64,000 bases of DNA from Roseospirillum parvum. Lineage in GTDB: Bacteria; Pseudomonadota; Alphaproteobacteria; Rhodospirillales; Rhodospirillaceae. Under the pieces are notes generated by a model. The model did not search any database, was not told the origin of the DNA, and was given only the letters and a program-made list of their open reading frames with translations. The position numbers and the translations under genes are program-made. The DNA lies in the NCBI RefSeq assembly GCF_900100455.1, contig NZ_FNCV01000001.1, positions 537,093-601,092 of the forward strand, written 5' to 3'. Below are positions 33,666-57,733 of this stretch, in pieces. Position 1 is the stretch's first letter. Each line of letters opens with the position of its first letter.

Positions 33666-34004
33666 GGTTTCGCCGGTGTCAGTAGGGGAGGGCGCGGTGG
33701 TCATGCCGCGTGCGGCGGGGCGGGCAAGGGTCCCGAGGTCCGGCCGGCCCATCGCGGGCCGGATCGACGGGGCCGGGGCTGGGAACAGGGCGGACCGTCT
33801 GGTGGTGCGGGGATCGTGTGGGAGACGTCGTGAGCCTGTCGGAAACGATGGCGCTTGGGTGGAATCGGCACCGTGGACCCCATCAGCCGACCCCTTTTTC
33901 TGGAAAGAGGGCCATGCCGTCAACTGGCTTTCAGCCCGGCGGTGCCATCGCGACAGGGCACAGACCGAGGCGATGTGACCGGTCCTCCCCCGGTGGTCGC
34001 TCGG
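33666..34004. other. Gene-free spacer
   Basis: 339 bases between the GT39-like stop and the sulfotransferase start, both on the minus strand. No coding region with a start or family match was found. A short ACCGG/CCGGT stem lies near 33978-33996, without a T-run, so no terminator is claimed. Confidence 0.45.
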
Positions 34005-35583: not shown

Positions 35584-36906
35584 ATGGACCAGTACCCCGC
35601 CCACCAGGACATCGACCTTGCGGCCTTCTCGCCCTCGGCGCGCCCCCAGACCACCCGCTACGGTCTGCCGCTCGAGGTGCGCTACTGCCAGCGGTGCGTG
35701 ATTTCCAACCAGCGGCCCAATTCGGCGGTCGAGTTCCGGCACACCAGGGACTCGGTCAAGACCACCATCCACTTCGACGCGGAGGGGGTCTGCGACGCCT
35801 GTCGGGTGGCCGAGCGCAAGGCCCACATCGACTGGGCGGCCCGCGAGGAAGAGCTGAAGGCCCTGTGCGCCCGCTTCCGGCGCGACGACGGGCACTATGA
35901 CGTTCTGGTCCCGGGTTCGGGCGGCAAGGACAGCTTCTATGCCGCCCATGTGCTCAAGTACAAATACGGCATGAACCCGCTGACCGTGACCTTTGCCCCC
36001 CACCTCTACACCGACTGGGGGTGGCGCAATCACCAGGCCTGGATTCACGCCGGCTTCGACAACTACACCCTGACCCCCAACGGGCTCAGCCATCGCCTGC
36101 TCACCCGGCTGGCGGTGGAAAACCTGCTCCATCCCTTCCAGCCGTTCATGCTGGGGCAGAAGAACATGGCCCCCCGGCTGGCCGCCCTGTTCGGCATCCC
36201 GTTCGTCGTCTATGGCGAGAACGAGGCCGAATACGGCAATCCCATCAAGGACATGGACGAGGCCCGCCGGTCCCACCGCTACTACGTGGTGGACGATCCC
36301 GACGAGGCCCACCTGGGCGGTGTTTCGGTGCGCGCCCTGAAGGAGGACTTCGGCCTGACCACGGCCGACCTCGAACCCTTCATGCCGGTCGACCCGGAGC
36401 GCCTGGAACAGCTTGGGGTGGAGGTCCACTACCTGGGCTATTACCTGCGCTGGCACCCGCAAAGCTGTTACTACTACGCGGTCGAGCACGGCGGGTTCGA
36501 AGCCTCGCCGGAGCGTACCTCCGGCACCTACTCGAAGTACAACAGCATCGACGACAAGATCGACGACCTGCACTACCTGACCACCGGCATCAAGTTCGGG
36601 ATCGGCCGCGCCACCTACGACGCCGCCCAGGAGATCCGCTCCGGCGACATCACCCGCGAGGAAGGGGTGGCCCTGGTCCGCCGCTTCGACCACGAGTTTC
36701 CCGAACGCTTCATGCCCGAGCTGCTGAACTACCTGAGCCTGCCGCCCAAGCAGTTCCCGCGCGCCGCCCGCTTCTTCGAAAAGCCGGTGATGGATCGGGC
36801 CTACTTCGACAACCTCTGCGACCGCTTCCGCTCGCCCCACCTGTGGATGCTTGAGGACGGCGCCTGGAAGCTCCGCCACCCGGTGTGGAACCAGCCCGCC
36901 GACTGA
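35584..36906 (+). CDS. N-acetyl sugar amidotransferase (WbpG/PseA/WbuX family)
   Basis: 440 residues. The PP-loop ATPase motif VPGSGGKDSFYA (109-120) activates the substrate as an adenylate. Paired CxxC motifs (C35/C38, C70/C73) fit the family zinc site. WbpG/PseA enzymes turn an acetamido group into an acetamidino group using ammonia delivered by HisF- and HisH-like partners, which are encoded next. The substrate may be the nonulosonate made by the converging leg operon (compare Leg5Am in Campylobacter), or another N-acetyl sugar. Confidence 0.9.
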   Translation: MDQYPAHQDIDLAAFSPSARPQTTRYGLPLEVRYCQRCVISNQRPNSAVEFRHTRDSVKTTIHFDAEGVCDACRVAERKAHIDWAAREEELKALCARFRRDDGHYDVLVPGSGGKDSFYAAHVLKYKYGMNPLTVTFAPHLYTDWGWRNHQAWIHAGFDNYTLTPNGLSHRLLTRLAVENLLHPFQPFMLGQKNMAPRLAALFGIPFVVYGENEAEYGNPIKDMDEARRSHRYYVVDDPDEAHLGGVSVRALKEDFGLTTADLEPFMPVDPERLEQLGVEVHYLGYYLRWHPQSCYYYAVEHGGFEASPERTSGTYSKYNSIDDKIDDLHYLTTGIKFGIGRATYDAAQEIRSGDITREEGVALVRRFDHEFPERFMPELLNYLSLPPKQFPRAARFFEKPVMDRAYFDNLCDRFRSPHLWMLEDGAWKLRHPVWNQPAD

Positions 36907-36971
36907 GGCGGCCGCCGGCCACCCCACCGGGCAATTCGCCCTGACGAACCCGCTCTCATGAACCCGCATCA

Positions 36972-37736
36972 ATGAACCTGCGCCTCATCGCCCGCCTCGA
37001 CGTCAAGGCGCCCAACCTCATCAAGGGGGTTCACCTGGAGGGCCTGAGGGTCGTTGGCGACCCGCAAACCCACGCCCGGCGCTACTACGCGGCGGGGATC
37101 GACGAGATCATCTACATGGATTGCGTGGCCAGCCTGTATGGCCGCAACAGCCTGACCGATCTGGTCCGGCGCACCGCCGAGGACGTGTTCATCCCGCTCA
37201 CCGTGGGCGGCGGCCTGCGCTCGGTGGCCGACGTGGGCGAGATGCTGCGCGCCGGCGCCGACAAGGTGGCGGTCAACACCGCCGCCATCGCCGACCCGTC
37301 CCTCATCTCGCGCATCGCCGAACGCTACGGCGCCCAATGCTGCGTGCTCTCCATCGAGGCCAAGCGCCGCCCCGGAACCAGTGGCGCCTGGGAGGCCCTG
37401 ACCGACAACGGCCGCGAACACAGCGGCCGCGACGTCATCGCCTGGGCCCAGGAAGCCGAACGCCTGGGGGCCGGGGAAATCCTCCTCACCTCGGTCGACC
37501 AGGAAGGCACCACCCGGGGCTTCGACGTCGAGCTGGTGGCGGCGGTGGCCCAGGCGGTGCGCATTCCGGTCATCGCCAGCGGCGGCATGGGCACCCTCGA
37601 GCATCTGGTCGAGGTGGTCGGCCGGGGGGGCGCCGACGCGGTGGCCATGGCCCACGTCCTGCACTACGACAAGCTGGGCCTGGACGAGATCCGGGCCGCC
37701 GCCGCCACCACCGGCCATTTCGTGAGGCAGCCATGA
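36972..37736 (+). CDS. HisF-like subunit for sugar amidation
   Basis: 254 residues, TIM barrel. [29 protein letters not shown] at the N-terminus and [23 protein letters not shown] match the HisF2/WbuZ branch that serves amidotransferases rather than histidine synthesis. It channels ammonia from the HisH partner, with which it overlaps (ATGA), to the amidotransferase. No other his gene is present, which supports the glycan role. Confidence 0.9.
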
Positions 37737-38380
37737 CGTCCCGGGTGGTGGTGGTCGACTACGGCATCGGCAATCTGCTCTCGGTGTCCCGCGCCCTGGA
37801 CCACTGCGGGGCGGCGGTCACGGTCAGCGGCGACCCCGAGGTGGTCGCCCGGGCCGAGCGGCTGGTGGTGCCGGGGGTCGGCGCCTTTGCGCGCTGCCGC
37901 CAGGAGTTGGTCGAACGCGGGCTGCTGGAGCCCGTGGTCGAGGTGGCGCGCAGCGGTCGCCCCTGGCTCGGCATCTGCGTCGGCCTGCAACTGATGCTGG
38001 ATCACAGCGAGGAGTTCGGCCACACCCCCGGCCTTGGCCTGATCCCCGGGGCGGTGCGCGCCATCCCGCCCACCGACGCGCAAGGCCGACCGCAACGGGT
38101 GCCGCACATCGGCTGGAACCGCCTGGAGCCTCCCCCCGGCGCCTCTGCCTGGGCCGACGGCATCCTGGCCCCGGTGTCCCCCGGGGCGGCGGTCTACTTC
38201 GTCCATTCCTTCGCCGTCGAGCCCACCGACCCGGCCGCCGTGCTGGCCACCACCCCCTATGGCGGCCGCCCCCTGGTGGCGGCGGTGCGCACCGGCAACG
38301 CCCATGGGGTGCAGTTCCACCCGGAAAAGAGCGGCCCCGTCGGGCTGGCCATCCTGCGGGCGTTTGTCGGCTGCCTGTAG
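37733..38380 (+). CDS. HisH-like glutamine amidotransferase for sugar amidation
   Basis: 215 residues, class I glutaminase. The nucleophile Cys82 is in LGICVGLQLM, and the His/Glu pair in VQFHPEKS completes the triad. It supplies ammonia from glutamine. The start overlaps the HisF-like stop by four bases. The gene ends 149 bases before the convergent AAC(3)-family gene. Confidence 0.92.
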   Translation: MTSRVVVVDYGIGNLLSVSRALDHCGAAVTVSGDPEVVARAERLVVPGVGAFARCRQELVERGLLEPVVEVARSGRPWLGICVGLQLMLDHSEEFGHTPGLGLIPGAVRAIPPTDAQGRPQRVPHIGWNRLEPPPGASAWADGILAPVSPGAAVYFVHSFAVEPTDPAAVLATTPYGGRPLVAAVRTGNAHGVQFHPEKSGPVGLAILRAFVGCL

Positions 38381-38529: not shown

Positions 38530-39348
38530 TCAGCTTTGCCAGGGGCGGATCGCCGGGGGCCTGTCGCACCAGGCATAAGGGTCGCGAAAGATGGTTTCGC
38601 ACGCGGACCGGAAATATTCTCTCATGGAGTAGGCGTGGACCTGCCCCTTGCCCAGCCTGGCTGATCGTATTGCTCCAGGATGCCGGTTCGTGAAATCCCC
38701 AAACAGCTTCAGCCCGAAGTTGCGCAGGCCTTGAACATCGCTTTCCCTATACATCAGGTACATGTAGAAATATTCTTCGACAACCGCGCCGTTTCTTTCT
38801 ACTGGGTGGCGGAATTCCTTCACGTATCGATAGGGAACGGTCATCACTTGCTCGACATGGTGGGTGGTGGACGCCGACATCCTCGGCTCAACACCGATGC
38901 TGAGCACCGTCGCATCAAGGTCAATCATGCGTGCCTCGGGACTCCCCCAGCCATATCCGTGGCGCGAGACGTCATCAACAATGGCCGATGCCTGAGGGCC
39001 CAACGCCGCATACGAGTTGAACGGGTGGAAACTGCGCCGAGCTGAAGGCAGCCGGCGCACATGCTCCGAGAAAACACCCACCCGGTACGCCGGCGTTCGT
39101 GAAAGGCTGAAGACCGTGTCCGTGCCCAACAGGTTCATGCTGGCGGTCGGCACCACGACGGTGAGGTCCTCGCCACCGACCTCCCTCAAGGCCGCCAAGT
39201 GGGCTGTCAGAACAGCCTCGCGTCCCGGCTCGGCATAGTGCATCAAAAGACCGATATCGGAAACCACGTAAACCACGCCAGAGCGGGGTAGGCCCAGGCT
39301 GGCATAGGCGGCGACGATATCCTGGAACGTGTAAGGGCGACGTGTCAT
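38530..39348 (-). CDS. AAC(3)-family N-acyltransferase
   Basis: 272 residues from the ATG at 39348. SRTPAYRVGVFSEHVRRLPSARRS-HPFNSYAALGP (about 85-125) is the signature of aminoglycoside 3-N-acetyltransferases. Members in surface-polysaccharide loci acylate sugar amines rather than drugs. It is the last gene of the 14-gene glycan operon, 123 bases after the sulfotransferase. It could use acetyl-CoA or, speculatively, the acyl group carried by the operon's carrier protein. Confidence 0.82.
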   Translation of the reverse strand: MTRRPYTFQDIVAAYASLGLPRSGVVYVVSDIGLLMHYAEPGREAVLTAHLAALREVGGEDLTVVVPTASMNLLGTDTVFSLSRTPAYRVGVFSEHVRRLPSARRSFHPFNSYAALGPQASAIVDDVSRHGYGWGSPEARMIDLDATVLSIGVEPRMSASTTHHVEQVMTVPYRYVKEFRHPVERNGAVVEEYFYMYLMYRESDVQGLRNFGLKLFGDFTNRHPGAIRSARLGKGQVHAYSMREYFRSACETIFRDPYAWCDRPPAIRPWQS

Positions 39349-39471: not shown

Positions 39472-40302
39472 CTAGAGGTAATCAAGCCGGCGCATCATGG
39501 GTTCGGCATAAGTCAGGAAAGCATCCGTCTGGTCGGTTGTCCACCGCTCTGGTGGGGGGAGCAGATAGCGGGACCGCTGGTTGATGCGTTGCCGCATGGC
39601 TTCGGCGACCGGTTCAGGGATGGCGTCGTCAATTCCAAGAAAACGGCGCACTTTTTGGTAAGATTCCGGAAGATCGGCAAAGAACTCCTCGAAACGGATC
39701 ACCATGTAGCGATCTTCCGGCCAATGGGTCAGAGCATCGAAGATCAGCCGATAGGTTTCGTTCCACAGCCAGGCGTTTTTCTCGATGCCCGATAGAGCGC
39801 TCCATTTGGCGTGCAACGGGTCGGTGGGAAGTGGCCGCAGTCGGCCGAGCGCAATGAATTTCTCTACGCCGACCAGGGGGCGGTCGTCGGGCCACCCCAC
39901 CGGGGTCGGGTCGGGAACGGAATCCGTATAGACGGAGCGGACGAACGAGCGCCCATCGCGGATCAGAACCAAGAGCTTTGCCGTGGGGTGGACCTGCCTG
40001 AGTGCCGAGACGAAAGGGGCATAAAAATAGGCGATGTCGCCGAACCAGGGGGTCCCCAGCTGCCTTGCCTTTTCCTCCATGGTTTCGCCGCGCGTGGTGG
40101 CGATGATCTCGCCGGCCTGCTGAGGGTTCTTGTAGGTGGCGTAGTTCTGGAGCGTCAGATAGGGCAGGACCTGCTCGCCAGACGTGGTTCCGTAGCGATA
40201 CTTGCCTTCGTGCAGGCAGGTGATCTGGGTCTCGTTGTTCAGGTAGTTGGCCAGGGCCATGCTGCCGCAGCGACCGGCGCCGACACCGAAAAATGTTTCC
40301 AT
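39472..40302 (-). CDS. PAPS-dependent sulfotransferase, glycan operon
   Basis: 276 residues. FFGVGAGRCGSMALANYL (4-21) is the 5'-phosphosulfate-binding loop and LLVLIRDGRSFVRSVYTD the 3'-phosphate motif, so PAPS binding is likely. It lies between the carrier protein (76 bases upstream) and the AAC(3)-family gene. The acceptor is presumably the glycan built by this operon. Confidence 0.85.
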   Translation of the reverse strand: METFFGVGAGRCGSMALANYLNNETQITCLHEGKYRYGTTSGEQVLPYLTLQNYATYKNPQQAGEIIATTRGETMEEKARQLGTPWFGDIAYFYAPFVSALRQVHPTAKLLVLIRDGRSFVRSVYTDSVPDPTPVGWPDDRPLVGVEKFIALGRLRPLPTDPLHAKWSALSGIEKNAWLWNETYRLIFDALTHWPEDRYMVIRFEEFFADLPESYQKVRRFLGIDDAIPEPVAEAMRQRINQRSRYLLPPPERWTTDQTDAFLTYAEPMMRRLDYL

Positions 40303-40378: not shown

Positions 40379-40630
40379 TCAGGACAAGTGACGCGTGATG
40401 GCCGCCTGAATTGCGGCCACCTTGGTCAAATCCGGCAACTCATCCTGCTCGAAGGAAATCCCCAGGGCGTCTTCCAGGGCCGTCACCAGTTCGATGAAGC
40501 TGAAAGAATCCCAGCCCTCCACGTCGTCCATGGTGGCGTCCGGCGTCAGATTGGCGGCGACCTCTGGCCCAAAGAGCTTTTCGAAGGTGGCCACCAGAGT
40601 GGGGTGAAGGGTCGCGCTGTCCTCGGTCAT
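40379..40630 (-). CDS. Acyl/aminoacyl carrier protein
   Basis: 83 residues from MTEDSATLH; six further in-frame residues are possible upstream. Acidic four-helix carrier protein with the phosphopantetheine site GWDSFSFIEL (Ser42). It starts its role beside the class II synthetase-like ligase, whose stop lies 14 bases upstream. This pairing is that of dedicated carrier proteins loaded with an amino acid. It needs a phosphopantetheinyl transferase from elsewhere. Confidence 0.9.
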   Translation of the reverse strand: MTEDSATLHPTLVATFEKLFGPEVAANLTPDATMDDVEGWDSFSFIELVTALEDALGISFEQDELPDLTKVAAIQAAITRHLS

Positions 40631-40644
40631 GGTACTGGTCCTCG

Positions 40645-41844
40645 TCAATGATCCGGCCGTTCCGGGCCGCCTGCAATCTGGCCCAACTCACCCGGCCATT
40701 TCGCGGGATCATCGCCAAACTGGGCGAAGAGGGCATAGGCCATTCGCTCATAGCCATAGCCGACGCATCCGGAAGCCAGGGGATCAGGCGTGTTGCTGCC
40801 AATGTCATAGGCGCCCACCAGGGTCTGCTGATGCAGGTTGAAGGAGGCCACGGAGAGCCATTTGTCCAGGTGCGGTAGCAAGCACTGGGCCTCGAACTTC
40901 AGGCGCATGGCGCCCTGGTACGCTCGCTTGCCGCTGGCCGAGGTGGCGAAGAACGGATCGGAGGCGGAGATGACGCGGTAGGTCACCCCCCAGGCGTCGA
41001 ACCATGCGATGAAGTCTCCCATGATCTCCTGCCGGATCCGCTCGCAGTCAGCCTGAGTCCCGAAGAACACGATCTCCCGCATGGTGAAGGTGCGCAGGCG
41101 CTCAAGGCCTCGGATGTTGCGGCTCTCGAAACGGTGACACGGGTTTCTGGCCGTGATCTCCATGGGAAGCTGATCGAGCTGGTCATCTCGCAGCCCCTCG
41201 AAGGTGTGGTAACACACCGTCGGGGCCAGCATTTCAGCATGGGGCCCGAACTTGGCGTGGCTTTCGTCCAGCTCCTGGGGGCGCGGTCGCACGTGGGCCA
41301 CCAGTTCGTCGATGCTCTCCTTGCTTTCGTGAACCGCGGCGACGAAAAGGGCGTGGTGCGGGAAGCTTGTCAGGTACCCGTTCTCGACAAAGGATGATGT
41401 GGGCAGGGTTGTGGGATAGGACTCTTCGCGTGCGCCCCGGCCCACCGCATAGTCGCGAAAGCGCGCATCAAGCCCCTCGATGGCCTGACGCAGGGTCCCC
41501 CGCAACAGAAAACTGCCCGGTGCCAGTTCCCGCATTTGACCGGTGGCCAGAAGGTGATCCAACGGCTCGGTCGAGGCCGCGGTAAGGTCGCCGGCATTCT
41601 GGTGAAAGATGTCCGGTTTGACGCGCCGGAACGACTTCAGGACAGTCTCGACATAGTCGCGGATGGTCTGTTCAATGGTGGCATGGTCGGGGGCCGCGCC
41701 GTCTTTCAGCCACACCTTGAGGCCGGGGCCCTCGAAGCTGGCGTTCGAATATTCCGGACAGACATATGGCAGTTGCTCAAGAATGGATTTCCGGACTTCC
41801 GGATCGCTTATTCTGTCATTTTCAATGGCAATCTCAATAATCAT
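40645..41844 (-). CDS. Class II aaRS-like amino acid:[carrier protein] ligase
   Basis: 399 residues. Resembles the catalytic core of seryl-tRNA synthetases without the tRNA-binding arm. Motif 2 is CHRFE...LERLRTFTMREIVFFG (236-262) and motif 3 is GYGYERMAYALF (362-373). Cys211, Glu240 and Cys360 are placed like the zinc ligands known from Bradyrhizobium aa:CP ligases, which load Gly or Ala onto a carrier protein. About 80 extra N-terminal residues are not recognised. It overlaps the upstream gene by four bases and precedes the carrier protein. The amino acid cannot be predicted. Confidence 0.85.
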   Translation of the reverse strand: MIIEIAIENDRISDPEVRKSILEQLPYVCPEYSNASFEGPGLKVWLKDGAAPDHATIEQTIRDYVETVLKSFRRVKPDIFHQNAGDLTAASTEPLDHLLATGQMRELAPGSFLLRGTLRQAIEGLDARFRDYAVGRGAREESYPTTLPTSSFVENGYLTSFPHHALFVAAVHESKESIDELVAHVRPRPQELDESHAKFGPHAEMLAPTVCYHTFEGLRDDQLDQLPMEITARNPCHRFESRNIRGLERLRTFTMREIVFFGTQADCERIRQEIMGDFIAWFDAWGVTYRVISASDPFFATSASGKRAYQGAMRLKFEAQCLLPHLDKWLSVASFNLHQQTLVGAYDIGSNTPDPLASGCVGYGYERMAYALFAQFGDDPAKWPGELGQIAGGPERPDH

Positions 41845-43274
41845 TGCCGGAAGTCCTTTTTTTCATGGGTCTGGGTGATGATCGAGGGCGCCCCTCGGGT
41901 CAGTTCAAGGACCTTGAGGTCGGTGTGGCCGTATTTGTCATTGGTTGCCACACCGATGCGCCGGACATCATCCAGCGGCAATGTATCATCGTGAAAAGCG
42001 TAGCTCCAACGACGATCATCAAGAGAAAAATCCAGATTGTCGTGAATGAAGCGGTGCGACATGGTCTCGATCGCCAGGAATGGCTGCGGACCGAAAGCCC
42101 GCCCTTGACGGCAGGTGATGGTCAGATGCGGAACGTCGTTTTCGGGGTCGGGGTTCAGGCTGAGGTCGAGTTCCACGGGCGCCTCGCCGGCGTCCCCGGA
42201 CAGCGTTTCAGGGTACAGTGCGCGACGGAACGCCTCGCCCGCCTCGCAATAGGCAACCTTGACCCCGGGGTGGCGCGCCTGGGCCTGGCGAATGAGGTCC
42301 TGAACAAAGTCCACTTCGGCTTCCAGGTCCCGGAAGTCGTGGCTGGCCAGTCCGACCACGGTTGGCTGACCGCCCGCTGCCCGGGCAAAGGCCTTGTCCA
42401 TTTCATGCTGATTGATGGCGCCGATCCGGTTAAGCACGTTCAGGGCCCGGCCGATCACCCGCCGGCAGTTCCCGGGCCGACGCCAGTCGTCATGTGACGG
42501 GTGGTAAAGCGACCAATCGCTGGGGGCGCCCCGCCAATCACCGGAGCGGCCGTTGCGAAAATCCGTCACGGCATCCAGTTCCGAATGGTCTTCCATTGCC
42601 ATGCTGGAGATGTCGAAGGGAATCCATTGCTCCAGGAACCAGTGGCTGTCCGGCCGCTCGGCCTGGAAGCCAGCCCGGAAGACGCTGGGGAACCAGTTGC
42701 GTTCAATGATGCGCCGGCACAGAATTTCGTGGAGTTCGGGCGAATTCACGAACGAGGTCGCACACTTGTGAGCCTCGCGGTAGGTCGAGACCGGGTGGAA
42801 GTGAAAGTGTATTTGGTCCCGCCACTCGGGGTTTTCCCGCAGGACCTGCGCGTAGTGATCGAAGATGGCATGGAAGCCCATGGACCGCCGGCGCGGATTG
42901 ACCACGAACCCGACGTGGTCCAGGCAGTGCCAGTTGAACACCCAACCCCGGCCAAATGAGTCCGGCGTCTTGAGTCTGAACCGAGGGGAGTTCAACCGCT
43001 CAAGCATGCGGTCGATCTTGTCCCATGTGTCATTGTAATCAATCAGATGCCCACTGACCACGGTGGCCACTTTTTCTTCGATGCCGCCGAGGTCGATTTC
43101 CTGGCGTCTCAGGGCCTCGATGGTGGCCCGGGTGGGGGGCAGGTGGGTCAGGCCGAAAAGATGCTTCAGGCGCTGAAAAGTGGCGCTGGTGGACTCGTAC
43201 AACGGCCCTTCCGTATCCACGGCATGGACGATCAGGACCAGGTTGTCGGTCTGCAACAAGTCGGATTGTTCCAT
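41841..43274 (-). CDS. NodB/polysaccharide-deacetylase-related protein of unknown activity
   Basis: 477 residues. LVLIVHAVDTEGPLY at the N-terminus resembles the first motif (Asp) of NodB-fold deacetylases. HFHFHPVS (about 155-162) and GLASHDFRDL could supply metal-ligand histidines. A C-terminal beta-rich region of about 130 residues is unrecognised. It is coupled by ATGA overlap to the aa:CP ligase and lies 43 bases after the carbamoyltransferase. Likely acts on the same glycan; the catalytic assignment is tentative. Confidence 0.55.
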   Translation of the reverse strand: MEQSDLLQTDNLVLIVHAVDTEGPLYESTSATFQRLKHLFGLTHLPPTRATIEALRRQEIDLGGIEEKVATVVSGHLIDYNDTWDKIDRMLERLNSPRFRLKTPDSFGRGWVFNWHCLDHVGFVVNPRRRSMGFHAIFDHYAQVLRENPEWRDQIHFHFHPVSTYREAHKCATSFVNSPELHEILCRRIIERNWFPSVFRAGFQAERPDSHWFLEQWIPFDISSMAMEDHSELDAVTDFRNGRSGDWRGAPSDWSLYHPSHDDWRRPGNCRRVIGRALNVLNRIGAINQHEMDKAFARAAGGQPTVVGLASHDFRDLEAEVDFVQDLIRQAQARHPGVKVAYCEAGEAFRRALYPETLSGDAGEAPVELDLSLNPDPENDVPHLTITCRQGRAFGPQPFLAIETMSHRFIHDNLDFSLDDRRWSYAFHDDTLPLDDVRRIGVATNDKYGHTDLKVLELTRGAPSIITQTHEKKDFRQ

Positions 43275-43317: not shown

Positions 43318-45159
43318 TCAGCCGCCCAGGCGGGCCATGATGCGCTCCAGCGCCCGGTTTTTCACCAGCAGACGGCCCTCGGGCATGAGCAGGACATCGA
43401 GTTGCGACAGGGCGACCGTCCGGGCCGCATCGGCCAAGGTGGCGTTCATCGGTTCGCCGTGCAGGTTGAGCGAGGTGTTGAGCAGCGCCGGCACCCCGGT
43501 GCGCTGGCGGAAGGCCTCAAGGATCGCCCAGTATTCGGGATTGGTGGCTTGGCTGACCCGCTGCGGGCGCGCGGTCAGGTCGCCCTGGTGGAGGGCGGCG
43601 GGGATCAGTCGCCGCCCGGCCGCCGAGGCCGGCAGTCCGACCATCATGAACGGGCTGGCCAGGTCGGTCCGGCCGTCCAGCAGAGCATCCAGATGCCCGT
43701 CCAGCACCGACGGGGTGAAGGGCATCCAGTAGTCCCGGTTCTTGATGGTGTCGTTGATCTTCTTGACGTTGTCGAGGTTTGAGGGGTTGGCCAGGATCGA
43801 GCGGTTGCCCAGCGCCCGGGCGCCGAATTCCATGGGTCCCACGCAACGGGCCAGGATCTCGTCGCCGGCCAGAAGGGCGGCCACGGCCTGTGCGTCGACT
43901 CCCTCAAGGACACTGAAGTCGTCGGCCCCCAGTGGGGTCTCCCCCAGGCGCGCCGTCCAGTCGTCTCCCGGCTCCATCCCCAGGTAGAGGTGATGCAAGG
44001 GGGTCGGCGGTCGCTCCTTCAGGGCGTTTTCCATGAACACCGCCCCCGCCGAGAGGGACTCGTCGCCTCCGGAACCAGGAATGCTCAGGCTGTTCAGGCC
44101 CGCCATTGCGGCGATCTCGCCGTTGGACTTGATGTTCATTGCCAGGCCGCCGGAAAAACACAGGCTGCGCCGTCCCGTCTCGTCCATCCAGTGGCGCATC
44201 CAGTTGATGGTTACCCGGGTCGCCCAGTTTTGCAGACCGCGGGCGATGGCGTCGAAGCGATGTCCCTCCAGGCGGTTGCGCAGATCGAAATAGCTGTCGA
44301 TCAGAGGCTTTTCGGAGACGAAGCGGCCATCCCGGAAGTCGAGAATCTCCGAGTACAAGTCCTCGACATCGGCCACGTATTTGCTGGCCGTCGTATAGGG
44401 CGCCAGCCCCATCACCTTGTACTCGTGCTCGTTGGGTTTCATGCCCAGGATCAGGGTGGTGAAGCGGTACAGCCGGCCGACCAGATTGTCCGCCCCCGCG
44501 GCCAGGCGCTCCAGCCGGCCGTCCGCGCTCGGCACGCTGACGCTCCAGTTCAGGCCGTCGCCGGCGCCGTCGGCGGTGAACACCAGGATGTCCTCGGCCG
44601 GCAACGCGGCGGGCAACTGGGCCCCGTGGTAGGCGTAGTAGGCATGGCAGGTGTGGTGGTCGAAGAACTGAATGGGCGCCTCGATGCCAAGCTCGCGAAC
44701 CGTTCCGGGGCGCACCACTCGGTTGTGGTGGGCCACGGCTTCCTTGGCCGGCATGGTCCACAGGAAGGAAAGGTCGTCGTACCCACAATCAAGGTTGCGG
44801 GCTTTTCCCCGTTCGTATTCGGCCAGCCAGAATCCGGGGTCCAGCGGCTTGCCCTCATAGAGATGGGGCTTCCAGAAGGTGTGCATCTCCCGAATGTGGT
44901 CGTGGACCGACCACTGAGACCAGCGGTTGATCAGCACGCCGAAGGGATCCTGCGCGAGACCGGCAAACGCAACGGAATCGATTTTGCGCGCGTCGCCGTC
45001 CAGGTGGCGATCCAGCAGACTCCTGATGGCATTGCGTGGGAAGGCGACCTGGTTCTTCTTCTTGGTGAAGCGTTCTTCCTGCACCAGCCCGACCAGAACC
45101 CCATCAATGGAGAGGGCGGCCGAGGAGTTGTGCTCAGTTGTAATTCCCAGAACGATCAT
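43318..45159 (-). CDS. NodU/CmcH-family O-carbamoyltransferase
   Basis: 613 residues, full length. The N-terminal kinase-like domain has DHHTCHAYYAYHG (167-179), the iron-binding His cluster, and FTADGAGDG. LCFSGGLAMNIKSNGEI and GPMEFGARALGNRSILA are the family signatures. It moves a carbamoyl group from carbamoyl phosphate via carbamoyl-adenylate to a sugar hydroxyl. Located in the tailoring half of the glycan operon. Confidence 0.93.
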   Translation of the reverse strand: MIVLGITTEHNSSAALSIDGVLVGLVQEERFTKKKNQVAFPRNAIRSLLDRHLDGDARKIDSVAFAGLAQDPFGVLINRWSQWSVHDHIREMHTFWKPHLYEGKPLDPGFWLAEYERGKARNLDCGYDDLSFLWTMPAKEAVAHHNRVVRPGTVRELGIEAPIQFFDHHTCHAYYAYHGAQLPAALPAEDILVFTADGAGDGLNWSVSVPSADGRLERLAAGADNLVGRLYRFTTLILGMKPNEHEYKVMGLAPYTTASKYVADVEDLYSEILDFRDGRFVSEKPLIDSYFDLRNRLEGHRFDAIARGLQNWATRVTINWMRHWMDETGRRSLCFSGGLAMNIKSNGEIAAMAGLNSLSIPGSGGDESLSAGAVFMENALKERPPTPLHHLYLGMEPGDDWTARLGETPLGADDFSVLEGVDAQAVAALLAGDEILARCVGPMEFGARALGNRSILANPSNLDNVKKINDTIKNRDYWMPFTPSVLDGHLDALLDGRTDLASPFMMVGLPASAAGRRLIPAALHQGDLTARPQRVSQATNPEYWAILEAFRQRTGVPALLNTSLNLHGEPMNATLADAARTVALSQLDVLLMPEGRLLVKNRALERIMARLGG

Positions 45160-46857: not shown

Positions 46858-47592
46858 TCAGGCCAAGCCTTCCGGGGCGCGAGGGGGGGGCGCGGGCACG
46901 CCGGCCTGTGCCATCAGCGCCTCGGCCCGCTCGAGGTCGGCCAGGGTGTCGATGTCAAGCGAGCGTTCGGCGGACATGGGATATCCGATGACGTCGGGGC
47001 CGAAAAAGTCGTCCCGGGCCCGGATCCACGCCCAGCGGGCCAGATAGAGTGCGCCGTTGGGGGTGCACACCGGGGTGCCGTCCTGGCGGCGCGAGACTGG
47101 GGCGGGTCCCGGGCAGGCCGGGCGGAGCCGTCCCGTGGCGTCCTGGGTGTACAGCCATTCCAGGGGCTTGTCGAGCCGACAGACCGAGACGCAGGCCGGC
47201 GCCTGGGCGGCTTGCAGCACCTCGGCGGCGGCGTCGATGTCGGCCGCGGTGCGCAACGGCGAGGTCGGCTGAAGCACCAGGACGTGGCTGAAGTCCCCGC
47301 CGGCCATCATGTCCATGGCGTGATGCAGCGCCGCCTGGGTGGGGGTGGTGTCCTCGGCCAGTTCGGCCGGGCGTTGGAAGGGGACCTCGCAGCCCCAGGC
47401 CCGGGCGGTCTCCATGATCGCGGGGTCGTCCGAGGTCAGGATGACCCGATCCACCGTGCGGGCCTGGCTGGCCGCCTCGATGGTCCAGGCCAGCAGGGGG
47501 CGCCCCGCCAGCGGCCTGAGGTTCTTGCCGGGCAGCCCCTTGGAGCCGCCCCGGGCGGGGATCACGGCGAGGATTTTCATCGCTTGGTTCAT
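46858..47592 (-). CDS. legF: CMP-legionaminic acid synthetase-type cytidylyltransferase
   Basis: 244 residues. IPARGGSKGLPGKNL (11-25) is the CTP-binding signature of NeuA/LegF enzymes; SAERSLDIDTLADLERAEALM near the end carries the metal-binding Asp residues. It activates the nonulosonate with CTP. The start overlaps the ptmE stop (ATGA); an internal ATG at 47580 is possible. Assignment to LegF rather than NeuA rests on the neighbouring leg genes. Confidence 0.88.
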   Translation of the reverse strand: MNQAMKILAVIPARGGSKGLPGKNLRPLAGRPLLAWTIEAASQARTVDRVILTSDDPAIMETARAWGCEVPFQRPAELAEDTTPTQAALHHAMDMMAGGDFSHVLVLQPTSPLRTAADIDAAAEVLQAAQAPACVSVCRLDKPLEWLYTQDATGRLRPACPGPAPVSRRQDGTPVCTPNGALYLARWAWIRARDDFFGPDVIGYPMSAERSLDIDTLADLERAEALMAQAGVPAPPPRAPEGLA

Positions 47593-48638
47593 GGCGGCAG
47601 GGTTTCGACAACCTGGTCGGCCTTGCGGAAGTCCTCGAGCCGGCCGATGTCGAGCCAGGTTTCGTGCAGGGGATAGGTGGCCACCGGCTGCTCGCGGCTG
47701 ATCAACTCGGCCAACAGGTCGGTCATGTCGTAGCGACGTTCCCGGGGGACCAGGGCCAGCGCCTCGGGTCCGAGCACATAGATGCCGGCGTTGACGAACA
47801 CCTTGTGCAGCGGCTTTTCGACGATGCCGGTGGCCCACGGCCCGTCCACCTCGACCGTGCCGTAAGGCACCTGGATGTCGTACTGGCGCAGGCACAGGGT
47901 GGCGGCGGCGCCGTGCGCCTCGTGGTAGTCGAGGAGCTGGCTGAAGTTGGCCCCGGTCAGCACGTCGCCGTTCATCACCAGCAGGGGGGTGTCGGGCACG
48001 GCGGGCATCAGGGACAGGGCGCCGGCGGTGCCCAGGGGGTGGGGCTCCTCCACGTAGACGATCTCCACCCCCCAGTCCGAGCCGTCCCCGAAGTGGGCCT
48101 TCACCTGCTCGGCCAGATAGTGGACGGCGATGCAGAAGCGCCGGAACCCGGCCTCCACGAAACGCTCCAGGATGGTTTCCAGGACCGGCTTGCCGGCCAC
48201 CGGCAGCATCGGCTTGGGGACGCTTTCGGTCAGCGGCCGCAGCCGTACCCCGGCCCCGCCGGCGAGCAGGAAGACCCAGTTGGGCTTGGGGGTGGCCAGA
48301 GCTTCGACCAGGGTTTCGATGCGCACCACCCGGCCGGCGGCATCCACCACCGGCATCTGGCGCAGGCTGCGGGCCCTCAGGCGGGCCATGATGTGACTGG
48401 GTTCGTCGTCGTCGCGGGCCACCTGGAAGTCGCGGAACATGTGCTTTTCGGCCGGCGCCGCGAGGTCGGCGCCGCTCAGCAGGGCGCGCCGGATGTCGCC
48501 GTCGGTCATGGTCCCGACCAGACGCCCGTCCGCATCGACCAGCAGGGCGATCTTGGCCGGGCTGGCGTCGATCACCGCCATCACCTGGCGCAACTCGGCT
48601 TCCCGGGGGAGAAGGCTGGACGCGGGCGACAGACTCAT
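47589..48638 (-). CDS. ptmE: CBS-domain sugar-phosphate guanylyltransferase (PtmE type)
   Basis: 349 residues. N-terminal CBS pair (about 15-118) followed by a nucleotidyltransferase domain starting WVFLLAGGAGVRLRPLTE. In Campylobacter PtmE makes GDP-GlcN(Ac) for the legionaminate route, and this has the same domain order and gene company. Its stop overlaps legF and its start overlaps the legH stop by four bases. Confidence 0.85.
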   Translation of the reverse strand: MSLSPASSLLPREAELRQVMAVIDASPAKIALLVDADGRLVGTMTDGDIRRALLSGADLAAPAEKHMFRDFQVARDDDEPSHIMARLRARSLRQMPVVDAAGRVVRIETLVEALATPKPNWVFLLAGGAGVRLRPLTESVPKPMLPVAGKPVLETILERFVEAGFRRFCIAVHYLAEQVKAHFGDGSDWGVEIVYVEEPHPLGTAGALSLMPAVPDTPLLVMNGDVLTGANFSQLLDYHEAHGAAATLCLRQYDIQVPYGTVEVDGPWATGIVEKPLHKVFVNAGIYVLGPEALALVPRERRYDMTDLLAELISREQPVATYPLHETWLDIGRLEDFRKADQVVETLPP

Positions 48639-49318
48639 GGCTCAGGGGTTCCCTTGGCGGGGTGAAAGGTGGTGCCGGGCGGCAGGTCGCGACGTACGGT
48701 GGCTCCCGCCGCCACCACCGCCCCGGCGCCGATGGTGATGGTCTGGATGACCGCGCAACCGGTGCCCAGATGGGCTCCCTCGCCGACCCCCACGGCGCCC
48801 GACAGCACCACCCCCGGGGCGAGGTGCACGTGGGCCCCGATGCGGCAGTCGTGATCGACCCGGGCGCCGGTGTTGACGATGCTGCCATGCCCGATGCGGG
48901 CCCCGGTCTGGAGCACGGCGCCGGCCATCACCTGGGCCCCGTCGCCCACCGCCACCTGATGGGCCAGGCAGGCCATGGGGTGGATCAGGGGCGGGCAGAG
49001 ATGGCCGCTCTCGGCCAGTCGGGCGAAGGCCTGGCGGCGCGGGGCCGCCTGTCCGGGCAGGCTGCCGATGCCGTTGGCCACGTAGACCGCGCCCGGCGCG
49101 TACCGGGGATCGGTCAGGCAACCGTCATCGCCGAGGCAGACAAGACCCAGGCCGACCGGCTCTCCGGGAGCCAGACCCGGATCGAGGAAACCGAGCACCG
49201 AGGCGCGCAGGGCAAGCAGCAGGTCGGCGACCACGCGGCCGTGACCGCCGGCGCCAAGGACCAGCCACGGACGGTCCAGGGGGGTGGTCGGGGGGCTGTC
49301 GGGGGCGGGCTGGGTCAT
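48635..49318 (-). CDS. legH: Sugar N-acetyltransferase, PglD/LegH type
   Basis: 227 residues. The N-terminal Rossmann-like part is WLVLGAGGHGRVVADLL and a left-handed beta-helix of hexapeptide repeats fills the C-terminal half (GARIGHGSIVNTGARVDHDC). The His in VDHDC is the usual catalytic base. It would acetylate the 4-amino group produced by LegC. Overlaps legI by four bases. Confidence 0.88.
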   Translation of the reverse strand: MTQPAPDSPPTTPLDRPWLVLGAGGHGRVVADLLLALRASVLGFLDPGLAPGEPVGLGLVCLGDDGCLTDPRYAPGAVYVANGIGSLPGQAAPRRQAFARLAESGHLCPPLIHPMACLAHQVAVGDGAQVMAGAVLQTGARIGHGSIVNTGARVDHDCRIGAHVHLAPGVVLSGAVGVGEGAHLGTGCAVIQTITIGAGAVVAAGATVRRDLPPGTTFHPAKGTPEP

Positions 49319-50397
49319 GGCGCGTCGATCATTTCCCCGGCGGCGTAGGGGCGTCCGGCCGGACGGCCCAGAAGCGTCCAGCAGGCCATCGGCGAAAGGC
49401 CGGTGCCGGGCCGGCGGAAGGCCAGGGCCTCCTCGGTGAAGGGCTCGCCGGCGGCGATGGGCCGGGCGGCGACGATGCTGCGCCGGGCCACCCGGGCGGT
49501 GTCGTGCTCGACTTCGGTCGGCGCCTTGTGGCCGTCGCCCAGGGCCGCCTCGACGGTGCGGATGGCGCCCACCATGGCGGCCAGCTCGTCGGGCTCCAGC
49601 GAGGCCGCGTGGTCGGGGCCGGGCAGGGTGCGGTCCAGGGTGAAGTGCTTTTCGATCACCCGGGCGCCCAGGGCGGCGGCGGCGGTCGGCACGGCGATGC
49701 CCTGGCTGTGGTCGGACAGCCCGACCGCCAGCCCGAAGCGCTCGGCCAGGGTATGCATGGCCTTGAGGTTGATGCTGTCGGGCGGCGCCGGATAGGCGGA
49801 GGTGCATTGCAGCAGGGTGACCCGGTGGGCCACGGCGCGCCGCCCGGCCGGGTCGGCCAGGGCGTTGGCGAAGGCCGCGTCGCCGCGCCGCGTCCAGCCC
49901 AGCAGGCCGCAGGCGAGCACCCCCAGGGCGGCTGCCACGTCGGCCTCGGTGGCCATGCCGGTGGACAGGATGATGGGCCGGCCAGAGCGCGCGGCGGCCA
50001 GCAGCAGACGCGGGTTGGTGATCTCGCCGGAGGGGATTTTCACCCGCGCCATGCCAAGCCCAAGCAGCATGTCCAGCCCCTCGGGCTCGAAGGCGGTGGA
50101 CAGGAAGGCGATGCCCAGTTCCCGGCAGCGCGCCGCCAGCCGGGCGAAATCGGCGTCGGCCAGTTCCAGCCCGCGCAGCATGGAAAGCTGGTCGCCGTCG
50201 CCCAGTTCGCGGGCCTGATAGGCCGCCCGGCGGGCCCCGGCGGTGGCCAACTGCTCGGCCCTGAAGGTCTGGAACTTGATGGCGTCGGCGCCCGCATGGG
50301 CGGCCACGGCGACCATCTCCAGGGCCCGCTCCAGGCTGCCGTTGTGGTTCACCCCGGCCTCGGCGATGATCAGGCAGGGGGCTGGTGTCGGGCTCAT
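49315..50397 (-). CDS. legI: N,N'-diacetyllegionaminate synthase (NeuB family)
   Basis: 360 residues. The NeuB TIM barrel opens IIAEAGVNHNGSLERALEM, contains LSTGMATEADV and EKHFTLDRTLPGPDHAASL, and ends with a SAF antifreeze-like domain (RRSIVAARPIAAGEPFTEEAL). It condenses the 6-carbon amino sugar with phosphoenolpyruvate. Both ends overlap neighbouring genes by four bases. Confidence 0.92.
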   Translation of the reverse strand: MSPTPAPCLIIAEAGVNHNGSLERALEMVAVAAHAGADAIKFQTFRAEQLATAGARRAAYQARELGDGDQLSMLRGLELADADFARLAARCRELGIAFLSTAFEPEGLDMLLGLGMARVKIPSGEITNPRLLLAAARSGRPIILSTGMATEADVAAALGVLACGLLGWTRRGDAAFANALADPAGRRAVAHRVTLLQCTSAYPAPPDSINLKAMHTLAERFGLAVGLSDHSQGIAVPTAAAALGARVIEKHFTLDRTLPGPDHAASLEPDELAAMVGAIRTVEAALGDGHKAPTEVEHDTARVARRSIVAARPIAAGEPFTEEALAFRRPGTGLSPMACWTLLGRPAGRPYAAGEMIDAP

Positions 50398-51605
50398 GCC
50401 GGGACCTCCCAGGGCACGGGCCAGGCGGCCGGGCGGCGCGCCGGGTCCAGGTGCAGGGGCTTGTCCAGCAGCTCGGTTCTGGGCGGCAGGGCGGCCAGCC
50501 GGGCGGCGATGCGCGGCGCGGCGTGACCGTCGCCGTACAGACAATCCCGGCGGCTCAGATCATCGGCCGAGCCCCGGGGATGGGTGCGCAGGGCCTCGGT
50601 CAGGGCGGCCCCATCGGGGGCCCCCTCGGGAGTCCCATCGAGGGCCAAGGTCAGCACGTTGCGGCCCCGGGGCCGGCCGGCCTGTCGGCGGCCCACGTCG
50701 ATCACCGGCAGGCCGACGAAACCGGCCTCGACAATGCCGCTCGACGAGTTGCCGACCATCACCGAGGCCAGCCCGAGCGCCGTCGGATACAGCTCCAGAC
50801 CCAGGTTGGGCACCCAGTGGGCCCACGGATGGCGGGCGCACCACGCCTTCAGGGCCACCGTCATCTCCGCCCCGCCGGGGTCGCCGTTGGGGGCACTGAC
50901 CAGGGTCGGGGCGGGCACGGCGGCCAGGGCCGAGGTGACCGCCGCCACCAGGGCCGCGTTGTCGCCGCCGTTGGTTTCCGGGTGCAGGGTGACCAGCCGC
51001 AGGCCGTCCAGGCTGTCGAGCCCCGTGCGGCTCTTGAAGACCTCGGGCGCCACCTTGGGCGTGGCGCGCAGGGTATCCAGGCCGGGGCCGCCGGTGATGA
51101 TGATCCGGTCCGGGTCCTCGGCGCTGGCCAGCAGCACCTCGGCCGCCGCCACCGAGGCGACGAAATGCAGGTGCGACAGTTTGCTGAGGGCGTGACGGAT
51201 GCGGTCGTCCACCGCGCCGAGCGAGATTTCGCCGCCGTGCAGGTGGGCCAGCGGGGTGTTGAAGGGCAGCGCCGCGGTGGCGCAGGACAGCATCTCCAGG
51301 CGATCGCCGATGACCAGCATGACGTCCGGCTCAACCTCGGCCAGGGCGGCGGCGGTGGCCTCGCCGATGGCCGCCATGGCCCGGGCGGCGGCGGTGGGGG
51401 TGCCGCCGTCCAGCGCCTGGCCGCCCCGGCGGATGCGTTCGGGCGGGCATGGCGGGTCGCCCAGCAGGTCGGCCTGCGCGGCGTGCTGGCCGGTCAGCAG
51501 CAGCACCGGTTCGACTCCCGGCTCGGCTTCCAGGGCGCGCCACACGGGCATCAGGATCGAGAGGTCGGCGCGGCTGGTCGAGACCGACAGGACCCGGGTC
51601 GTCAT
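50394..51605 (-). CDS. legG: NDP-sugar hydrolase/2-epimerase (NeuC family)
   Basis: 403 residues. NeuC/WecB fold: VSTSRADLSILMPVWRALE at the N-terminus, VIGDRLEMLSCATAALPFNTPLAHLHGGE, and a C-terminal GNSSSGIVEAGFVGLPVIDVG nucleotide-binding block. It hydrolyses and epimerises the GDP- or UDP-linked diacetamido sugar before LegI. Overlaps legI and legC by four bases each. Confidence 0.9.
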   Translation of the reverse strand: MTTRVLSVSTSRADLSILMPVWRALEAEPGVEPVLLLTGQHAAQADLLGDPPCPPERIRRGGQALDGGTPTAAARAMAAIGEATAAALAEVEPDVMLVIGDRLEMLSCATAALPFNTPLAHLHGGEISLGAVDDRIRHALSKLSHLHFVASVAAAEVLLASAEDPDRIIITGGPGLDTLRATPKVAPEVFKSRTGLDSLDGLRLVTLHPETNGGDNAALVAAVTSALAAVPAPTLVSAPNGDPGGAEMTVALKAWCARHPWAHWVPNLGLELYPTALGLASVMVGNSSSGIVEAGFVGLPVIDVGRRQAGRPRGRNVLTLALDGTPEGAPDGAALTEALRTHPRGSADDLSRRDCLYGDGHAAPRIAARLAALPPRTELLDKPLHLDPARRPAAWPVPWEVPA

Positions 51606-52792
51606 CGGCCGCCCTCCGGCCCATCCTCCGCCCCCAGCCAGGCGCTGGAAGGCAGGCAGACCAGCCGGCGGACCAGATCCTCGGTGACCGTCAGATCGGC
51701 GCGCGGGCAGTCGGCGTACATCGGCAGATGCGACATCGGGGTCCAGGCCGGGCGGGTCATCAGGCCGGCGGCGTGGGTGGCGGCCAGCAATTCGTCGCGC
51801 CGCGCCGCCTGATCGGCCTTGAGGCGCACCGCGTTCAGCCAGAAGTTGCTGCGGCTGCCGGCCGGTTCGGGGACCACCTCCAGCCCGGGCAGCTCCGCCA
51901 GGGCCTGTCGGTAGGCCTCGGCCAGCCGGCGCTTGCGGGCGATCATCAGGGGCAGCCGCTCGAGCTGGGCGCAGCCGATGGCGGCGTTCACGTTGGGCAG
52001 CCGGTAGTTGTAGGCCACCGCGTCGTGCTCGAAGGCCCAGGGGTGGGGCCGCTTGGCGGTGGTGGTCAGGTGGCGCGCCGCGTCGGCCAGCGATGCGTCA
52101 TCGGTGACCAGCATGCCGCCGCCGCCGGTGGTCAGGATCTTGTTGCCGTTGAACGAGAAGACTCCGATCCGCCCGAGGCCGCCGGCCGGCCGGCCGTGGT
52201 ACAGGCTGCCCAGGGCCTCGGTGGCGTCCTCGATGATCGGCAGCTCGAAGTGGGCCGCCACCTCGGCCAGCGGATCGGCGGCGACCGGATGGCCGAACAC
52301 ATGGACCGGCACCACGGCGGCCAGTCGCCGGCCGGTGTGGCGGTTGACCGGGCCGTTCGGGCCGCGCACCGCAAGCCGTTCCAGGTGGTCGCGCAGGCGC
52401 TCCGGACACAGGCCCAGGGTGTCCGGGGCGCTGTCGACGAAGTGCGGCACGGCGCCGCAGTGGGCCACCGCGTTGGCGGTGGCGACGAAGGTCAGGGCCG
52501 GCACCAGCACCTCGTCGCCCGGTTTCACGCCCAGCACCATGAGGGCGGTGTGCAGGGCGGCGGTGCCGTTGACGGTGGCCACCGCGCGGGCGGTGCCGCA
52601 GTAGGCGGCGAGGTCGTTCTCGAAGCGATCGACGAAGGCGCCGACCGAGGAAATCCAGCCCTCGTCCAGGCAGGATTTCACGTACTCCCACTCGCGGCCG
52701 GCCAGCCAGGGCTCGTGCAGGCCGACCGGCCCCGGGCGCGGCCCGACCACGGCGCGGATGGCGGCGACGGTGGCGGCAAGATCGAGGCTCAT
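51602..52792 (-). CDS. legC: PLP-dependent sugar 4-aminotransferase (DegT/DnrJ/EryC1 family)
   Basis: 396 residues from MSLDLAAT. The PLP lysine is in FSFNGNKILTTGGGGM, with the cofactor-binding EDATEALGS upstream. It aminates the 4-keto sugar made by LegB. The start overlaps the legB stop (ATGA). Confidence 0.9.
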   Translation of the reverse strand: MSLDLAATVAAIRAVVGPRPGPVGLHEPWLAGREWEYVKSCLDEGWISSVGAFVDRFENDLAAYCGTARAVATVNGTAALHTALMVLGVKPGDEVLVPALTFVATANAVAHCGAVPHFVDSAPDTLGLCPERLRDHLERLAVRGPNGPVNRHTGRRLAAVVPVHVFGHPVAADPLAEVAAHFELPIIEDATEALGSLYHGRPAGGLGRIGVFSFNGNKILTTGGGGMLVTDDASLADAARHLTTTAKRPHPWAFEHDAVAYNYRLPNVNAAIGCAQLERLPLMIARKRRLAEAYRQALAELPGLEVVPEPAGSRSNFWLNAVRLKADQAARRDELLAATHAAGLMTRPAWTPMSHLPMYADCPRADLTVTEDLVRRLVCLPSSAWLGAEDGPEGGR

Positions 52793-53802
52793 CACAGAAC
52801 GTACCGGCTCGGCCCGTAAAGGGCCCGGTTGGCCGGATCGGAGAACCACGCGATGGTCTTTTCCAGGCCGCGGGCGAAGCCCTCGCGGCCGCCGAAGGCG
52901 GGTGCCCAGCCTAGGTGGCGTTGGGCCTTGGTGGTGTCGGCCCACAGGCGCTCCACCTCGCTTTTCTCCGGGCGCAGGCGCTGGGTGTCGGTGACGATCT
53001 CCACCTCGGCGCCCATCAGTCGGGCGATCAGCTGGACGGTGTCGCCGATGCTGATCTCGAAGCCGCTGCCGATGTTGACCTCCTCGCCGATCAGCGCCTC
53101 GCAGCCGGCGGCGGCGATGAAGCCCTGCACCGTGTCGGCGACGTAGGAGAAGTCCCGCGTCGGGTGCAGGGCGCCCAGGTGCAGACGGCGGCTGCCCTCG
53201 GCGATCTGGGTGATGATCGCCGGGATCACCGCGCGCGCCGACTGGCGCGGCCCGAAGGTGTTGAAGGGGCGCAGCAGGACCACCGGGGTGCCGAACGCGC
53301 GGTGGAAGGCCAGCGCCATCTGGTCGGCCCCGATCTTCGAGGCCGAGTAGGGCGACTGGCCCTGCAACGGATGCTCTTCGGTGATCGGCACGAAGCGGGC
53401 GGTGCCGTAGACCTCGGAGGTGGAGGTGGCGACCACGCGCTCGACCCCCAGGTCGCGGGCCGCCTGGAGGACGTTCAGGGTGCCCTTGACGTTGGTGTCA
53501 ACGTAGCTGTCCGGCGAGTGGTAGGAGTAGGGGATGGCGATCAGCGCCGCCAGATGCAGGACCACCTGACAGTCCCGCATGGCGGTGCGCACCCCGTTGG
53601 GGTCGCGCACGTCGCCGGCGAAGACGTCCAGATCGTCGCGGATGGCCGGGTCGGCGTGGTCGAGCCAGCCCCGGTGGCCGAAGGAGTTGTAGAGCACCAT
53701 GGCCCGCACCTGATGGCCGGCCTTGACGAGGGCCTCGGTAAGGTGCGAGCCGATGAAACCGTCGGCGCCGGTGACCAGGATCCGGTTGCCTTTCAGGGGC
53801 AC
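52792..53802 (-). CDS. legB: NDP-N-acetylglucosamine 4,6-dehydratase
   Basis: 336 residues from a GTG at 53802 with GGAGAG six bases upstream. Extended SDR: ILVTGADGFIGSHL (8-21) binds NAD, TSTSEVYG and YSASK give the catalytic residues. First committed step of legionaminate synthesis and first gene of the 14-gene operon. A CATGGT/ACCATG inverted repeat lies 30 bases upstream. Confidence 0.92.
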   Translation of the reverse strand: MPLKGNRILVTGADGFIGSHLTEALVKAGHQVRAMVLYNSFGHRGWLDHADPAIRDDLDVFAGDVRDPNGVRTAMRDCQVVLHLAALIAIPYSYHSPDSYVDTNVKGTLNVLQAARDLGVERVVATSTSEVYGTARFVPITEEHPLQGQSPYSASKIGADQMALAFHRAFGTPVVLLRPFNTFGPRQSARAVIPAIITQIAEGSRRLHLGALHPTRDFSYVADTVQGFIAAAGCEALIGEEVNIGSGFEISIGDTVQLIARLMGAEVEIVTDTQRLRPEKSEVERLWADTTKAQRHLGWAPAFGGREGFARGLEKTIAWFSDPANRALYGPSRYVL

Positions 53803-57602: not shown

Positions 57603-57733
57603 CAAGGTGGTTTCGGCGGCGGGCATGGGCGGCGGACGATCCCGGGGGTGTTGATGCTGACGGGGAGACTATAGGATCGGCGGAATGCTTGCCAGACCCG
57701 CCAACTTGCCAGACCCGCCAATCGGTGCCCTTC

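Follow-up and report, generated by a model that had tools for sequence, protein, structure and literature searches.

The locus examined here raises the question of what an amino acid:[carrier protein] ligase and a carrier protein are doing within a sugar operon. Ligases of this kind have been known since 2010 and, to our knowledge, have no agreed role. The accessible part of a 2022 review gives loading activity alone for them (PMC9437257). Based on analysis of a 64,000-nucleotide stretch of the Roseospirillum parvum genome (hereafter the window), we propose, at a rough probability of 0.6, that the ligase loads the carrier and that an AAC(3)-family enzyme passes the amino acid to a legionaminic-acid-type sugar. 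This reading draws on homology and gene neighbourhood, comprising a predicted fold, conserved catalytic residues and the following operon arrangement.

35584..38380, plus strand: WbuX–HisF/WbuZ–HisH sugar amidotransferase module (acetamidino formation); TIGR03573 above cut-off, HisF and HisH models
38530..39348, minus strand: AAC(3)/Antibiotic_NAT-family N-acyltransferase (P0005), proposed aminoacyl transferase; PF02522
39472..40302, minus strand: sulfotransferase; PF13469
40379..40630, minus strand: carrier protein, phosphopantetheine-site serine in GWDSFSF; PF00550
40645..41844, minus strand: long-form amino acid:[carrier protein] ligase, class II aaRS-like, SerRS/Bll0957 fold; Pfam tRNA-synt_2b
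41841..43274, minus strand: orphan 477-aa protein (P0003), no Pfam or NCBIfam family; stop overlaps ligase start
43318..45159, minus strand: O-carbamoyltransferase (NodU/CmcH type); PF02543 and PF16861
45227..46810, minus strand: Capsule_synth-like protein; PF05159, 18.7 bits, just below the cut-off of 20
46858..47589, minus strand: CMP-nonulosonic acid cytidylyltransferase (LegF/PseF-like); TIGR03584, E 4.6e-42, below cut-off
47589..48638, minus strand: sugar-1-phosphate nucleotidyltransferase, PtmE-like; nucleotidyltransferase models
48635..49318 (start approximate), minus strand: NeuD/LegH-type hexapeptide acetyltransferase; TIGR03570 above cut-off
49315..50397, minus strand: NeuB/LegI nonulosonic acid synthase; TIGR03569 above cut-off
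50394..51605, minus strand: NeuC/LegG UDP-sugar 2-epimerase/hydrolase; TIGR03568 above cut-off
51602..52945 (ORF; true start further in), minus strand: LegC aminotransferase; TIGR04181 above cut-off
52792..53802, minus strand: LegB-like 4,6-dehydratase; PF16363

The 399-aa ligase, whose start overlaps the stop of the 477-aa gene upstream, had been described in a first-pass annotation as a class II aaRS-like protein, an assignment confirmed by its class II tRNA synthetase core (PF00587, 44.4 bits) and by the fold of its predicted model. Its best PDB match is Bll0957 (3mey, E 4.3e-26), followed by archaeal type-2 SerRS (3w3s, E 2.3e-16). An AF2 model built from 29 homologues (mean pLDDT 85.7) resembles both archaeal SerRS 3w3s (Z 32.0, rmsd 2.6, 317 residues) and Bll0957 (3mf1; Z 28.3, rmsd 2.6, 291 residues), with the VIA-align structure rows running mostly from about residue 71 on and barely covering the N-terminal part of the ligase. 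Since its NF005479 score of 126.3 bits lies below the curated cut-off of 357, the ligase represents a sister clade outside that equivalog. Approximately 90 additional N-terminal residues are absent from Bll0957, and the protein belongs to a long-form clade separate from the Bll0957-type short forms.

Both signature motifs reported at first pass are present, motif 2 (CHRFE) at residues 236-240 and motif 3 (GYGYER) at 362-367, and residues C211, R238, E240, E257, C360, G364, E366 and R367 are invariant across the 29 homologues. We take the Zn ligands of Bll0957 to be Cys131, Glu176 and Cys279 (numbering after Mocibob 2010). In a phmmer alignment ligase residues Cys211, Glu257 and Cys360 lie opposite positions 131, 176 and 279, while Glu240 aligns with residue 161 and corresponds to the motif 2 glutamate of class II enzymes. 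Of the Zn site initially suggested (Cys211/Glu240/Cys360), the two cysteines are thus retained, and Glu240 is the wrong glutamate, being aligned with a motif 2 residue; the predicted site is Cys211/Glu257/Cys360.

The adjacent carrier scores 26.4 bits against PF00550 (PP-binding; cut-off 20.8), and its ATG lies 14 bases beyond the ligase stop codon; both this spacing and the intact DSF serine agree with the earlier description. It can be aligned with carriers from other loci of the clade, which have the W-D-S site in common, and a PPTase-family gene was found in the same genome. A protein search of 148 relatives identified the ligase in four, a figure that includes the source genome and one weak match. 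Family searches and one contig scan extended the long-form loci to Omnitrophota, Chloroflexota, Paenibacillus, Magnetococcales, Akkermansia, Acidobacteria, Planctomycetota and alphaproteobacteria. A carrier gene occurs within 250 bp of the ligase in 82 of 92 distinct long-form loci, on the same strand in 81, as counted with our own ORF picker and HMMs; one further locus (L064) possesses a carrier that the carrier HMM missed. The pairing therefore goes beyond chance, in that it recurs in most relatives.

The surroundings of the pair define its likely context. All assigned genes from 53802 to 38530 lie on the minus strand, with the WbuX–HisF–HisH set opposite, and every member of the legionaminic pathway (LegB, LegC, LegG, LegI, LegH, PtmE and LegF) was found in the window, PtmE and LegF being assigned by best model with scores under equivalog cut-offs, and gene starts being approximate. 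The sugar operon noted at first pass is hence a complete legionaminic-acid (nonulosonic acid) operon, and the locus should, judging from its genes, produce a CMP-legionaminic-acid-type sugar that bears several decorations. The candidate acceptor can be narrowed from a surface glycan to a nonulosonic acid. The sulfotransferase has a close relative in the nonulosonic acid clusters of the Rhodospirillaceae loci L072 and L119 (E 5.2e-93 for L072). A search for the Maf flagellin glycosyltransferase gave no match, its control likewise matching nowhere. Beyond the cluster, amine-oxidase-type and squalene/phytoene synthase genes lie upstream (55459-57626), perhaps for hopanoid or carotenoid synthesis, and a second sulfotransferase-like gene lies downstream (32748-33923).

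Two neighbours of the pair required revision. The upstream gene had been called NodB-like, a designation we could not support. P0003 lacks PF01522, gave an hhalign probability of 1% against 20 relatives' deacetylases, and is without a homologue in two overlapping genome samples (385 from the class, 299 from the phylum), in plasmids and in viral contigs. Its single-sequence AF2 model (pLDDT 38) was unusable. On the other side, the sulfotransferase/AAC(3)-type neighbour proved to contain both functions, divided between two separate genes (39472-40302 and 38530-39348).

P0005, the second of these, scores 96.9 bits against PF02522 (cut-off 25), matches the AAC(3)-IVa and FrbF structures, and retains the histidine and glutamate of the HxxE motif together with the flanking VPYRY stretch of ligase-linked AAC(3) proteins. 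Its score against the AAC_3 aminoglycoside equivalog is 65.7 bits, below the cut-off of 270; these cut-offs and the gene context make a resistance gene unlikely. Of 190 genomes from the class, 26 carry the family, and P0005, located 1.2 kb from the ligase, is its only member in this genome. Ligase-linked and unlinked proteins are largely apart on the AAC(3) tree, where P0005 is divergent (end branch 2.82), forming no firm grouping with the Anaerolineales set. Relatives of P0005 also occur near carriers where this ligase type is absent, with the carrier approximately 70 bp after (L229), 135 bp before (L230) or 1.2 kb before (L231) the AAC(3)-family gene, an arrangement that fits a family taking acyl groups from carrier proteins. 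In L230 a 350-aa gene adjoining the carrier resembles ketosynthase III by eye. A further AAC(3) gene (L232) lies with NeuB in a nonulosonic acid cluster that has no carrier, so that its product may use acetyl-CoA.

The survey for AAC(3)-family genes near the ligase that had been put forward as a check returned 32 of the 92 long-form loci (within 3 kb, same strand), a count which, like those of other neighbours, is favoured by HMMs seeded partly from the loci then counted. These loci, 22 of which also carry NeuB, are mostly Anaerolineales; NeuB lies near the ligase in 25 long-form loci overall. Mapped onto the ligase tree, the AAC(3) neighbour requires at least four changes (the window, Anaerolineales, L136 and L108), and the linkage is consequently not simply one inherited block. 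In a further 42 long-form loci a DltB-like MBOAT lies beside the ligase, and no locus combines it with AAC(3), as expected if the two were alternative transferases. Under random placement this zero overlap would have a chance of 3e-12; because the loci are related by descent, the ligase tree weighs more than this figure. None of 19 short-form control loci, one of them (L079) a very close Bll0957 relative (E 2.1e-214), has AAC(3), MBOAT, NeuB, NeuA or sulfotransferase neighbours; short-form carriers are perhaps too different for the carrier HMM. Among Anaerolineales, operons comprise NeuB, NeuA, Capsule_synth, carrier, ligase, GNAT, AAC(3), a DUF4910/M28-like protein and sulfotransferases, in an order whose conservation is partly shared descent.

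Together, these observations suggest a route in which the ligase would adenylate a small amino acid, probably of the Gly, Ala or Ser class, and then load the neighbouring carrier with it, at the phosphopantetheine thiol. The AAC(3)-family enzyme is related to enzymes with acyl-pantetheine donors, and we propose that it takes aminoacyl-carrier instead of acyl-CoA; it would then form an amide with an amino group of the legionaminic-acid-type sugar or a precursor in the cytoplasm. The presumed product would be CMP-activated and exported within a surface polymer. The suggestion that an aminoacyl group passes from carrier through a transferase to a glycan thereby gains strong comparative support from the AAC(3) and NeuB associations, and the NodB-like context once attached to it falls away. 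Sugars of the required kind exist: as cited in two papers, Vibrio vulnificus makes Leg5Ac7AcAla (PMC7371886), C. botulinum has Leg5GluNMe7Ac and A. caviae places Gly on pseudaminic acid (both PMC5207245).

Other uses of the same genes have to be weighed against this route. The window ligase groups, with support of 100/100, with Omnitrophota L098, L072/L119 and Jannaschia L121, the last an exception without the N-terminal part and without a carrier. Within this clade L072 and L119 possess ligase, carrier and a nonulosonic acid cluster, in which NeuB is encoded at least twice and a PseG-like protein also occurs, and AAC(3) is absent from them; WbuX-type amidotransferases lie near the ligase in L072 and L098. 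These loci would suit an arrangement in which P0005 is an ordinary acetyl-CoA-dependent acetyltransferase of LegH type and the aminoacyl-carrier serves some other enzyme encoded there, for example P0003 or a transferase not yet recognised, still acting on a glycan. Presumably Cj1298 of C. jejuni is likewise a PF02522 member. It is the LegH of that species (PMC3438082), which lends this arrangement a precedent. We nonetheless regard it as unlikely, in that an acetyltransferase of NeuD type is already encoded in the window, and AAC(3) lies next to the ligase repeatedly, in lineages that are separate, and never together with MBOAT.

Alternatively, the amino acid might be acetylated, formylated, methylated or oxidised on the carrier, so that an altered acyl group reaches the sugar. 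Most Anaerolineales loci have a GNAT gene beside the ligase, and the L072 cluster contains a formyltransferase-like gene; both point in this direction, as does the acetylated alanyl substituent implied by the notation Leg5Ac7AcAla (PMC7371886); the window pair, however, has no such gene next door, and we consider this quite improbable here. Finally, ligase and carrier stand alone in some Magnetococcales loci, with no recognised sugar genes, as they might if the pair made a small peptide-like metabolite or signal independent of sugars and its place in the window operon were accidental. Such an explanation is very improbable, given how often the pair is accompanied either by genes for NeuB, NeuA, sulfotransferases and acyltransferases or by a DltB-like protein. 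Among Magnetococcales-type genomes (L062, L064-L071), many of those sampled from three families carry the ligase, and no recognised transferase lies close to it.

For the window we thus prefer a reading in which the AAC(3)-family enzyme transfers the amino acid, and the MBOAT-bearing loci suggest a second outlet for the same pair. In Paenibacillus (L130, L135, L137, L169 and others) the operon runs carrier, ligase, a 303-aa protein, a DltB-like MBOAT (TIGR04091, E 1.6e-51, below cut-off) and a xylose-isomerase-like protein. The 303-aa protein has no family match, its GNSS and DLVH stretches suggesting, by eye only, an SGNH enzyme. This operon is possibly a Dlt analogue with an aaRS-type loader. 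A gene for a large FG-GAP protein precedes the Paenibacillus operon. Long-form ligases of the window's own phylum adjoin MBOAT genes in L063, L073, L074, L075 and L077, the last with an AlgX-like protein too. We consider it somewhat more probable than otherwise that aaRS-derived ligases of a clade that is widespread and apparently undescribed form, with their dedicated carriers, a Dlt-like module with two outputs. One would be the N-aminoacylation, in the cytoplasm, of nonulosonic acids by way of AAC(3), the other envelope aminoacylation through a DltB-like MBOAT. No paper describing the combination of ligase, carrier, transferase and nonulosonic acid genes was found in the open literature, subscription journals lying mostly outside the search. 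If true, this module would supply a physiological role for amino acid:[carrier protein] ligases; the conserved neighbours provide a specific, testable proposal for one ligase clade, which may explain how amino-acid-bearing sialic-acid-like sugars arise.

Several known systems can be compared with the window. Bll0957 of Bradyrhizobium japonicum (PDB 3mey, 4h2s; NF005479), whose structure was solved together with its own carrier protein, has approximately 26% identity to the window ligase over 290 residues and has in common with it the class II core, the Cys/Glu/Cys Zn site (by alignment) and a carrier protein partner; unlike the window clade, the 19 short-form loci showed no nonulosonic acid, AAC(3) or MBOAT neighbours. 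With the aminoglycoside N(3)-acetyltransferase family (AAC(3)-IVa, FrbF, YokD; PF02522) P0005 shares sequence family and HxxE motif, but unlike aminoglycoside acetyltransferases it falls far under the NCBIfam aminoglycoside cut-offs and lies amid carrier and nonulosonic acid genes. The window operon has a gene for every step of the CMP-legionaminic acid pathway (LegB/C/G/I/H/F and PtmE), to which it adds ligase, carrier, AAC(3), sulfotransferase and carbamoyltransferase. In the Dlt system (DltA-DltC-DltB-DltD) an amino acid is placed on a carrier, from which the MBOAT transfers the aminoacyl group (PMC12148441) towards a cell-surface polymer, the same scheme as that proposed here. The loader is an adenylation fold in DltA and a class II aaRS relative here; and whereas the Paenibacillus relatives are Dlt-like in their DltB-like MBOAT and possible SGNH protein, the window carries AAC(3), an MBOAT being absent within 8 kb of the ligase.
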